From: Chloroflexota bacterium
GTDB taxonomy: Bacteria > Chloroflexota > Anaerolineae > Aggregatilineales > Phototrophicaceae
Assembly: GCA_016223085.1 (NCBI GenBank)
Contig: JACRPS010000020.1
Coordinates: 1 to 64,000, forward strand
Reading direction: 5' to 3'
DNA length: 64,000 nucleotides
In this document: positions 5,499 through 54,734 of the stretch, piece by piece
Position numbering within the stretch: the first letter of the stretch is position 1
Layout of the letters: each line of letters starts with the position of its first letter
The notes under the pieces: model-generated
Databases searched by the model: none
Told to the model about the DNA's origin: nothing
Seen by the model: only the letters and a program-made list of their open reading frames with translations
Translations under genes and position numbers: made by a program

Positions 5499-5598
5499 AT
5501 GGATGACCGAAGACAGATTCATCGAATGGAGGGGCGAACCGGCGGTTCGCCCCGACGAAAAATCCATGTATCGGTTTTCATTTAACCATAAGCCAGTG
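5499..5598 (+). mobile_element. Type B nested palindromic element
   Basis: ATGGATGACCGAAGACAGATTCATCGAATG-GGGGCGAACCGGCGGTTCGCCCC-GACGAAAAATCCATGTATCGGTTTTCATTTAACCATAAG. Confidence 0.72.
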
Positions 5599-7206: not shown

Positions 7207-7469
7207 AGGCGGTACTCCTTTCAGCAGGATACAACCGGACACGCTATTGACGGTACAAAATATTCTGTCACTCCGTGGGGACGCAGCACGCTGCGCCCCA
7301 GATACAGCACAATAAAGTTACGGTCAGCGTCGCCGGACGCTGAAAGCCGTCCGGCTGAAGGTGGCTGGCAGGACGATACTGTGGGCTTCAGCCGCTGGCG
7401 GCACCAATCGTTTAACCTGTGACGCAGGGGATATGGCATACCTCGTCCCTGTAAAATTCAGTGCTGGAG

Positions 7470-7550
7470 ACCTATCCGTAAAGCTCTTTTATCTGTCGCC
7501 CGGGGCACGGCATGCCGTGCCCCTACGAAGGGTTTATGGATAGACACTTA
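7470..7550 (+). mobile_element. Type A nested palindromic element (MITE-like)
   Basis: ACCTATCCGTAAAgctc…GGGGCACGGCATGCCGTGCCCC…GGGTTTATGGATAGACACTTA; outer and core inverted repeats. Confidence 0.75.
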
Positions 7551-13348: not shown

Positions 13349-13428
13349 GTGTCTATCCATAAACCCTTCGTAAGGGGGCACGGCATGCCGTGCCCCTACA
13401 GGCAAATAAAAGAGGTTTACGGATAGGT
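13349..13428 (-). mobile_element. Type A nested palindromic element, opposite orientation, just upstream of the Y1 transposase
   Basis: Reverse complement of the 7470 and 53678 copies with few differences. Confidence 0.78.
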
Positions 13429-13462
13429 TCTTAATGATTCTGGACAGGGACAGGGGGATATT

Positions 13463-14210: not shown

Positions 14211-14307
14211 CCTTATGGTTAAATGAAAACCGATACATGGATTTTTCGTAGGGGTGAACCGCCGGTTCGCCCCTACATTCCATACATCTGTTTTCGGTCA
14301 TCCATTA
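14211..14307 (-). mobile_element. Type B nested palindromic element, opposite orientation
   Basis: CTTATGGTTAAATGAAAACCGATACATGGATTTTTCGTAGGGG…CATCTGTTTTCGGTCATCCAT. Confidence 0.72.
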
Positions 14308-51201: not shown

Positions 51202-53598
51202 TTGACTCTCCGGCGCGTCGGCCTGCTGGTGGCGCTGTATACGCTGCTGGCCGCTGTTTACCTGTTCAGCTACAGCGGTCGGATTGAAAGCGGCGATACG
51301 CTGGCGCTGTTTGATACAACCAGCAGCCTTATCTACTTTGGCGACAACCTGTTTGACCAGTCTGCCTCGGCGCATCCGCCGCCGCCCGGCGCGGATGCCC
51401 GTCTGTATCCGCTGCTGGGTGCGGAGGTTGAGCCGCTGCACAGCCTGCTGGCCGGGGCGCTGGTCTGGCTGGCGGACCGTTGGCCGGGGGTGGGGCTGGT
51501 ACATGCGGCCTGGCTGCTGAACAGCTTCATCAGCGCGGCGGCGGTGGGCACGCTGCTGGTCTACGCGCTGGCGCTGGGGTACAGCACACAAACCGCGACG
51601 CTGGCGGCGCTGCTGCTGGGGCTGGCGACGGCACTGTGGCCGTACAGCAAAACCTTCTTCCGCGAACCGCTGGCGCTGTGGCTGATTCTGCTGGCGGCGC
51701 TGCTGCTGGACCGGTGGCGCGCCGCGCGCTACCGGTCGCTGCCACTGCTGCTGGGCAGCGGGCTGGCGCTGGCGAGCGCGTATCTGGCGAAGGAAGCGGT
51801 GGTGTTTGCGCTGCCGGCGCTGGCGTTGATCGCCGCGCCGGAACTGCCACTGCCGCCCGAACGGGCACGGCGGCTGGCGCGCTGGTCGCTGATTGTACTG
51901 CTGCTGGCGCTGGTGGCCTTTGTCGTTATCACTCTGTTATCCCATGTCATTAATCTGATGTGGCTGTACCAGATGCTTGCTCCAGTACTGGGTTATCCGC
52001 CCTGGCAAGTACGGTTGGCACATTATGCCTTACATGGCTATCTGCTGAGCATCGGCGGCAGCGTGTGGGGCACGTCGCCGGTGGTGCTGCTGGCACTGCC
52101 CGGCATGTGGCTGCTATACCGGCGTGGACAGTACCGGTATAGCGGCGCGGCGGCTGCGATGACGCTGGCGTTCGCTTTGGGCTATGCCGTGCTGCGCGGG
52201 GTACACTGGTTTGGCGGGCTGTCGTGGCCGCCGCGCTTCCTGCTGCCGGTCCTCCCCTTCCTGCTGCTGGCGGCGCTGCCGGCGCTGGACCGGCTGACAC
52301 GGCGGCCTGTCCGCACCTGGATGATCGCAGGCGCGGGGATATTGATCGCCTACAGTCTGTGGATACAGCTTAGCGGCGTGACGCTGCCCTGGGGGGCGTA
52401 CACCGCCGCGCTGCCGCCGGAGGCGGGCGGCCTGAGCGAATGGGGCGGCGGGCTGAACCTGATACGCTACCTGCGCTGGGTGGTCATCCCGCCGCTGTGG
52501 GCGACCACGCCGCTGGACTTCGCCTGGGTGCGGGTGAACGCGCCGCTGTGGCCGCTGCTGCTAATCGCGCTGGCGGTGTATTCCGGCTGGCAGGTGGTGG
52601 CACTGCTGCGCGGCGTCCCGGTACGTGGGCTGCGGCTGCGCCTCGTGCTGCTGCCGCTGGCGCTGGCGGTGACGGTATACACCGGGCTGCGGCTGATCTA
52701 TGCCGACCCGCTGTACCTGCTGCCGGAACATGAGGCGTTAGCGCAGGCGGTTGCCCATGTCGAAGGCGAGAGCGTCCGCGGCGACGTGCTGCTGCTGAGC
52801 GACGATACCTTCGAGCCGTACTTCCTGAACTACGGCAGGCTGCGCGTGCCGCGCGTGATCTCGCTGCCCGACCAGCCGGGCGACCAGCCCAGCCCGGAGC
52901 AGCCGGCGGCGGTGGTTTCGGATAACCCGGACGCGCTGCTGACGAAGGAAACCATCCCGCTGCTATTTAACCTGGCGAGCCAGCGCGACCGGCTGTGGCT
53001 GCTGGAGGACGCCGGCCCCTGGCTGGCGTGGAGCACGCGCCCGGTCGAACGGTTTTTAGCCGCGCATTATTACCCGGTGCAGGTGATTGAATTCGCGCCA
53101 ACGGTGCGGCTGATCGAGTACAATACTACCGACGCGCCCAACCCCTACGCCTTTCGCGGGCCGGACCGGTTGGCGGGGCTGGTGTTTGGCGATCAGATGC
53201 GGCTGGCGGGGTTCTCGCTGCCACGCGGCGACCGCTACGCGCCGGGCGAGGTGCTGCCGGTGTCGCTGTACTGGCAGGCGGAGCAACCGCCAGAGCGTGA
53301 TTACACCGTCGCGCTGTTTCTGGCGAGTGCGGACGGGACACGCGTGGTGCAGGGGATGGACACGCCGCCGGGGGGCGGTTTCGAGCGCACCAGCCAGTGG
53401 CGTCCGGGTGTGCCGGTGTGGGACAACCGGGCGCTGCGGCTGCCGGCTGATCTGCCGCCGGGGGATTACCGGCTGTGGGTGAAGGTATACGCGTGGGAGG
53501 CGGGGGCAATTGATCTCGTGCCGGTTACGGACGGCGACCGGGCGGATGACAGCACCGGCGTGCTGCCCGCCACCATCGAAATTCAGTCTTATGGATGA
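51202..53598 (+). CDS. Multi-TM membrane glycosyltransferase-like protein
   Basis: ~10 TM segments, DTTSSLIYFGDNLF; large C-terminal soluble domain; TTG start. Confidence 0.7.
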   Translation: MTLRRVGLLVALYTLLAAVYLFSYSGRIESGDTLALFDTTSSLIYFGDNLFDQSASAHPPPPGADARLYPLLGAEVEPLHSLLAGALVWLADRWPGVGLVHAAWLLNSFISAAAVGTLLVYALALGYSTQTATLAALLLGLATALWPYSKTFFREPLALWLILLAALLLDRWRAARYRSLPLLLGSGLALASAYLAKEAVVFALPALALIAAPELPLPPERARRLARWSLIVLLLALVAFVVITLLSHVINLMWLYQMLAPVLGYPPWQVRLAHYALHGYLLSIGGSVWGTSPVVLLALPGMWLLYRRGQYRYSGAAAAMTLAFALGYAVLRGVHWFGGLSWPPRFLLPVLPFLLLAALPALDRLTRRPVRTWMIAGAGILIAYSLWIQLSGVTLPWGAYTAALPPEAGGLSEWGGGLNLIRYLRWVVIPPLWATTPLDFAWVRVNAPLWPLLLIALAVYSGWQVVALLRGVPVRGLRLRLVLLPLALAVTVYTGLRLIYADPLYLLPEHEALAQAVAHVEGESVRGDVLLLSDDTFEPYFLNYGRLRVPRVISLPDQPGDQPSPEQPAAVVSDNPDALLTKETIPLLFNLASQRDRLWLLEDAGPWLAWSTRPVERFLAAHYYPVQVIEFAPTVRLIEYNTTDAPNPYAFRGPDRLAGLVFGDQMRLAGFSLPRGDRYAPGEVLPVSLYWQAEQPPERDYTVALFLASADGTRVVQGMDTPPGGGFERTSQWRPGVPVWDNRALRLPADLPPGDYRLWVKVYAWEAGAIDLVPVTDGDRADDSTGVLPATIEIQSYG

Positions 53599-53676
53599 CC
53601 GAAAACAGATTCATAGAATGTAGGGCGAACCGGCGGTTCGCGCCTACGAAAAATCCATGTATCGGTTTTCATTTAG
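53591..53676 (+). mobile_element. Type B element, right end interrupted by a type A element
   Basis: ATGGATGACCGAAAACAGATTCATAGAATG…AAAAATCCATGTATCGGTTTTCATTTA. Confidence 0.72.
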
Positions 53677-53758
53677 AACCTATCCGTAAACCTCTTTTAT
53701 TTGTCGGTAGGGGCACGGCATGCCGTGCCCCTACGAAGGGTTTATGGATAGACACTTA
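53677..53758 (+). mobile_element. Type A nested palindromic element inserted within a type B element
   Basis: Near-identical to the 7470 copy; flanks match the B element end. Confidence 0.78.
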
Positions 53759-53780
53759 ACCATTAGTCAGGGAAAACAAG

Positions 53781-54734
53781 ATGCCTTCCTTATCCGTCAT
53801 CATTCCTGTGTATAACGGCGCGCTCAGCCTGCCGGAACTGACGGCGCAACTGGCGGAGGAACTGCCGAAGCTGGCCGACCAGTACGAGATCATCTTCGTT
53901 GAGGACGACGGCAGGGATAACAGTTGGGATGTTATCAAAGGGCTGGCGCGGCAGTATCCCTGGGTGCGCGGCTTCAAACACATGCGGAATTACGGCCAGC
54001 ACAACGCGCTGCTGTGCGGCATCCGCGCGGCACGCCATGACATCATCGTCACGATGGACGATGATCTCCAGCACCCGCCGGTGGAAATCCGCAAGCTGCT
54101 GGATAAGCTGAACGAGGGCTATGACGTGGTGTACGGCAAGCCGCAGCAGGAGCAGCACGGCCTGCTGCGCGATTTTGCCTCGCAAATAACCAAGCTGGCG
54201 CTGCAAAGCGCAATGGGCGTGGACGTGGCGCGCAGCGTCAGCGCCTTCCGCGTCTTTCGCACCCAGCTACGGGATGCCTTCACCAGCTATCAAAGCCCGT
54301 ATGTTTCGATTGACGTGCTGCTGACATGGGGGACAAAACGCTTTGCCGCCATTCCCGTCCGGCACGACCCGCGCACGCTGGGTGTTTCCAACTACACGCT
54401 GCGCAAGCTGGTGCGCCACGCGCTGAACATGATGACCGGCTTCAGCACGCTGCCGCTGCAAGTCGCCAGTCTGGTCGGCTTCGGACTAACGATGTTTGGT
54501 GTCGTCGTGCTGGTATACGTGATCGGACGAGCGCTGATCGAACGTGCCGCGCCGGCAGGCTTCCCGTTTCTGGCGTCCACAATTGCAATTTTCTCCGGCG
54601 CACAGTTGTTCGCGCTGGGCATCATGGGGGAATATCTGGCGCGGATGCACGTCCGGATTATGGGGCAGCCGTCGAGCGTGGTGCGCGAGGCGGTGGAGCA
54701 CCAGCCGGAACCAGAACAGGCAGGCCAGCCGTGA
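53781..54734 (+). CDS. GT2 family glycosyltransferase (polyprenol-phosphate sugar synthase type)
   Basis: LSVIIPVYNGALSLPELTAQL; VTMDDDLQHPP; two C-terminal TM helices. Confidence 0.93.
   Translation: MPSLSVIIPVYNGALSLPELTAQLAEELPKLADQYEIIFVEDDGRDNSWDVIKGLARQYPWVRGFKHMRNYGQHNALLCGIRAARHDIIVTMDDDLQHPPVEIRKLLDKLNEGYDVVYGKPQQEQHGLLRDFASQITKLALQSAMGVDVARSVSAFRVFRTQLRDAFTSYQSPYVSIDVLLTWGTKRFAAIPVRHDPRTLGVSNYTLRKLVRHALNMMTGFSTLPLQVASLVGFGLTMFGVVVLVYVIGRALIERAAPAGFPFLASTIAIFSGAQLFALGIMGEYLARMHVRIMGQPSSVVREAVEHQPEPEQAGQP

Follow-up and report, generated by a model that had tools for sequence, protein, structure and literature searches.

ISLrh, which belongs to the IS1031 subgroup of the IS5 family, is 857 bp long, has the end GAACCTGTCTAGTATCT, starts with GAACCTGTC and is associated with a 3-bp TNA duplication (PMC12016507). 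Element A and its likely partner IS resemble such insertion sequences in the size class of the IS, the transposase family, the end starting with GAACCT and the 3-bp TNA duplication, but A itself comprises 80 bp and is gene-free. With bacterial MITEs (PMC10969869), element A and its host element B share that they are short and non-coding, have inverted-repeat ends and a target duplication, are mostly intergenic and occur in dozens of copies. Unlike those, the two families A and B are superimposed at one recurring position, and their central palindromes also occur alone.

The locus was found in the window, the whole stretch of 64,000 nucleotides that was analysed, which is part of contig C8 of an assembly of 6.03 Mb in 37 contigs. 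We consider it highly probable that two MITE families are stacked here, that B entered a CTTAG site and A later the TTA of B, that A was moved by an IS1031-type transposase, and that such landings were repeated and mostly independent.

Architecture of the nested site and its flanking genes

The earlier note had described an A element nested in a B element at 53591-53775, and the sequence indeed reads in this way, with the empty B ends aligning to it; its readings of the two uninterrupted B ends, at 5571 and 14211, are likewise correct. The insertion into the B end stands, but A measures exactly 80 bp (53676-53755) instead of the proposed ~81-84 bp, and the boundaries of B had to be corrected, as it runs from TGG (53592) to CCA (53762). 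The features are as follows.

51202-53598, plus strand: upstream open reading frame, stop TGA now inside B, no Pfam match
53589-53591: left copy of the B target duplication, TTA in CTTAG; joining of the flanks gives CAGTCTTAGTCAGGG
53592-53675, plus strand: left 84 bp of the B element (TGGATGACCG...GGTTTTCATTTA) with palindromic core GCGAACCGGCGGTTCGC
53673-53675: left copy of the A target duplication (TTA)
53676-53755, plus strand: A element, 80 bp, with terminal inverted repeats GAACCTATCCGTAAACC / GTGTCTATCCATAAACC and palindromic core GTAGGGGCACGGCATGCCGTGCCCCTAC
53756-53758: right copy of the A target duplication (TTA)
53759-53762, plus strand: terminal remainder of B (ACCA), from comparison with empty B copies
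53763-53765: right copy of the B target duplication (TTA)
53781-54734, plus strand: downstream gene, family 2 glycosyltransferase (Pfam PF00535)
5500-5588, plus strand: empty B copy with TAA/TAA duplication
14216-14304, minus strand: empty B copy with TAA/TAA duplication
7468-7547, plus strand: second A copy of the window, outside any B
13349-13430, minus strand: third A copy of the window, outside any B

With A in braces and B in square brackets, the site near 53589 reads ...CAGTC-TTA-[TGGATGACCG...GGTTTTCATTTA-{GAACCTATCC...GGATAGACAC}-TTAACCA]-TTA-GTCAGGG, so that A and B each possess a 3-bp duplication of their own. If A is excised in silico, exactly the empty B end of the copies at 5500-5588 and 14216-14304 results. 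Excision of both elements gives ...AATTCAGTCTTAGTCAGGGAAAACA, and the flanks joined without A and B read ...CAGTCTTAG(stop)TCAGGG. The A element folds into a single long hairpin (z = -7.6), and the complete insert, as RNA, also folds strongly (z -7.3). Neither a rho-independent terminator nor a sigma-70 promoter was called in the insert, and Rfam gave no match within the window.

The insert stretches the intergenic spacer from ~14 bp to 182 bp. It was observed that B struck the TAG stop of the upstream gene and supplied a new TGA two codons further on (53589-53598). The C-terminus of the upstream protein thereby changed from EIQS* to EIQSYG*, a gain of two residues. The gene pair is conserved in four sister species (G005, G006, G007 and G013), where neither A nor B lies between the genes and 13 to ~126 bp separate the upstream stop from the downstream start; relatives of the downstream glycosyltransferase are found in 16 of the 16 other genus members that were searched. 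Among 60 relatives, a full-length A relative occurs in a single sister species, G013, where it is 85% identical and flanked by TTA/TTA, and B ends were not found outside the source genome in this set, where only the central palindrome matched. Elsewhere in the window, a perfect 141-bp direct repeat is present (1-141 and 991-1131, 990 bp apart), which is followed by a 294-bp repeat pair of 79% identity.

Ends, target duplications and a likely partner transposase

The copies were surveyed in 2.43 Mb, which comprised all of C12, C17, C18 and C27, most of C8 and the first 20 kb each of C22 and C33. The TTA duplication, which the earlier note had called ambiguous, turned out to be real, as 33 of the 52 near-full A copies in this part have identical 3-bp flanks (TAA in 17, TTA in 16). 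Outside B, the A target is YTTAR, mostly with C or T at the next position and C at the one after it. The main A subfamily ends at GAACCTATCC...GATAGACAC, in agreement with the proposed ends, and variants such as GGACC/GGGCC/ATACC...GATAC exist. Simple duplication fails to explain the other 19 copies with non-identical flanks, four of which are TAA/TTA or TTA/TAA; recombination between copies is our guess as to the cause. Flanks that pair TAA with TTA, in place of a direct duplication, were seen at L183 and at the A copies C12:318362, C27:171275, C12:1404147 and C12:1240050, and IS copies from other genomes show such mixed flanks too (L276, L279).

B copies start with TGG and end with CCA (or CCG), and most of them are flanked on both sides by TNA in CTNAG, with the pairs TAA, TTA, TGA and TCA. 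From their ends and 3-bp duplications, both A and B therefore behave as if moved by TNA-duplicating transposases of the IS5/IS1031 type. REP or BIME elements, which are moved by RAYT transposases and have single-strand palindrome ends and no target duplication, were considered and rejected, as A and B possess inverted-repeat ends and 3-bp duplications. Several A elements occupy, or directly adjoin, the TNA duplication flanking a B (C8:68643, C18:124073, C27:77759 and C18:105658), so that the two families are also found clustered where they are not nested. Lone copies of the A and B central palindromes (of the GTAGGGGC...GCCCCTAC types) number 275 in the 2.43 Mb, those within A or B not counted, and they carry several inner sequences; their positions in the window include 5753, 5979, 13368, 23144, 26463, 28669, 30978, 36569 and 57156. 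It seems that A and B either captured a third class of repeat or were assembled around one.

A likely partner of A is the 888-bp IS in which contig C1 ends and whose two termini both read GTACCTATCCGTAA. Its protein matches the IS5 family model NF033580 (E 3e-46) as well as PF13340 (DUF4096) and PF01609 (DDE_Tnp_1), both above cut-off. A stretch of ~53 bp is missing from this copy immediately ahead of its conserved VERTLGW motif, where the frame is broken, and it is therefore probably inactive. It is the sole complete copy of this IS in the assembly, in which no intact form of the transposase was seen. Fragments of this IS also terminate the contigs C21, C22 and C30, so that it is probably multicopy, and as C22 starts exactly at the deletion junction, a second form of the IS may exist. 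Full-size relatives of 938-944 bp are present in Anaerolineae and other Chloroflexi assemblies; most of these have the ends GAACCTATCCGTAA or GAACCTATCCGAAA and TTA or TAA duplications, and in five of the relatives one frame of about 285-305 aa encodes the transposase; ISLrh, by contrast, relies on a -1 frameshift (PMC12016507).

The 14-bp end of A, GAACCTATCCGTAA, exactly matches the two IS ends of L267 and one of those of L271, and it has one mismatch to the IS end of its own genome (GTACC). The TNA duplication as in A also occurs at the IS copies L264, L266, L267, L270 and L271. Judged from these sequence features, A is likely a MITE of the IS5 family, its placement in the IS1031 subgroup being based on the end and the duplication.

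As partner of B, no IS with TGGATGACCGAAAAC ends was found in the 2.43 Mb or by searching the rest of the genome with two transposase families. A full-size partner with B-like ends 350-2600 bp apart was also sought, but the sole pair that emerged consisted of two complete B copies at a distance of 1.5 kb. Besides the IS on C1, another IS5-type element (DUF4096), with the end GGTTCTGTTGACA beside CTAG, was noticed at G000 C36:1-300 and at the end of C20 and is probably multicopy; its transposase was rejected as the B partner, since its flanks carry no B-like end.

Filled and empty B right ends

A pattern scan of the whole genome identified 42 empty B right ends with at most 2 mismatches and eight clean filled junctions with at most 1 mismatch. 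Together with two degraded ones, ~10 B right ends are filled, all at the same base. In the orientation of the window, filled junctions are located at C8:53664, C18:141731, C27:72620, C34:11337, C12:279323 and C20:2498. At C12:703337 the A element is reversed, at C22:131 the B is filled by a full-size IS, at C18:76425 the host B is degraded, and at C12:692645 the filled copy has a small deletion at the junction. The contig ends C30 and C22 read GGTTAA-IS-TAAATG, which places a full IS at the same B base as A, if the two contigs are continuous across the IS, as we infer. A control with reversed patterns gave 0 versus 11 matches for the filled junction and 2 versus 45 for the empty junction, and the counts are thus far beyond chance.

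It might be argued that B natively contains A, that is, that both form one composite that was amplified as a unit and that all nested copies descend from a single insertion. The 42 empty right ends beside the ~10 filled ones, the two orientations of A and the three kinds of insert, as an A of a different subfamily (in the B at C20:2430) and the full IS occupy the same base, rule this out as a general account. Five A copies in B are identical over 80/80 positions (C8, C18:141743, C12:703267, C18:76355 and C34), while between their B hosts 5 to 39 alignment columns disagree (gaps counted), except for C8 and C18:141659, which differ at 2 columns. This exceptional pair, C8:53592 and C18:141659, shares a one-base B deletion, the same A and the same orientation, with B duplications that differ (TTA and TGA), and it alone could have moved as a unit, but the deletion is also found in the empty B C27:77842. 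Among the nested copies, a common history is plausible for this pair alone. For 6 of the 8 filled copies the nearest neighbour is an empty B, and the remaining two are this pair. In a tree of 37 B copies the 8 filled ones need 7 state changes, equal to shuffled labels, although this tree is built on ~85 columns and lacks support for most branches. A single composite is thus very improbable. Marginally less probable still is that A spread among B copies by gene conversion or homologous recombination instead of transposition. The frequent 100% identity of A copies in B would fit this, but the A copies outside B are equally identical and have the same ends and duplications, the homology to the right of the insert amounts to only about 7-11 bp, one A is reversed, the B hosts retain their own differences near the insertion, and long shared tracts were not seen. 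As the A copies are identical while most of their hosts differ, the insertions of A into B were mostly independent. The claim that A elements have moved and have defined ends is thereby borne out, as A inserted into a pre-existing B and its ends and target duplication are established.

In the history that we favor, with two stacked MITE families, B first entered a CTTAG that contained the TAG stop of the upstream gene, with duplication of TTA, as shown by the joined flanks and the insert-free relatives. Later, A entered the TTA of the right end of B (TTTAACCA), again with duplication of TTA. A transposase of the IS5 family and IS1031 type would move A in trans, recognizing GAACCTATCCGTAA and cutting YTWAR; here the matches of end and target are observed, and the enzymatic step is deduced from them. 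A and its full-size relative landed repeatedly and mostly independently at B right ends because these offer a near-ideal A target in about 50 copies.

Concerning the last point, the hotspot at the B end results from the sequence preference of A. By a target matrix built from 28 A insertions outside B, which is a small matrix, the B site ranks 194 of 6,684 intergenic TTA sites (top 3%). The chances are about even that the recurrent insertions need just this ordinary preference together with the neutral intergenic position of B, which would then not be special. On the other hand, the score-weighted expectation for B is ~3.4% of the insertions, or 1.4 of 41, whereas 5 to 8 are observed, an excess of ~4-6 times the prediction (P about 0.005 to 6e-5, assuming independence). 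Given the small matrix, this further several-fold excess is suggestive. It is conceivable, but rather unlikely, that the B right end attracts the A/IS lineage as a landing pad in ways that go past sequence preference, for example through the B palindrome or a bound protein that exposes the subterminal TTTAACC. If so, one mobile family would systematically disrupt the end of another and limit its spread.

Comparison with known systems

A and B are apparently undescribed MITE families of a known type, namely nested IS5-family MITEs, and literature searches within an open-access library yielded no description of the A/B palindrome or of Anaerolineae MITEs. Two MITE families are thus described in an uncultured bacterium, probably of the Anaerolineae (Chloroflexota) to judge from its IS relatives, and one of these families can be assigned a likely enzyme family. 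Nesting as such is familiar from plants, where Tourist-type MITEs often insert into other MITEs. Plant PIF/Harbinger and Tourist-type elements also share with A the 3-bp TTA/TAA duplication and an IS5-related transposase (PMC2213677), but PIF/Harbinger is a eukaryotic superfamily, and the likeness noted here concerns these features.

Repeated extragenic elements as recurrent landing sites are known from ISPpu9, ISPpu10, ISPsy8 and ISRm22, which target REP palindromes (PMC1525189), and from IS1111 in QMITE2 of Coxiella (PMC10969869). In contrast to these, the target here is the transposon end of B rather than its palindrome, and the element that mostly lands there is a MITE in its own right. 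Sites with and without an insert, all at one recurring base, form a rare set that makes both insertion order and target preference readable, and they raise the testable question of whether one mini-transposon family can act as a sink for another. It is the clean series of empty, A-filled and full-IS-filled ends at one B base that sets the nesting of A in B apart.
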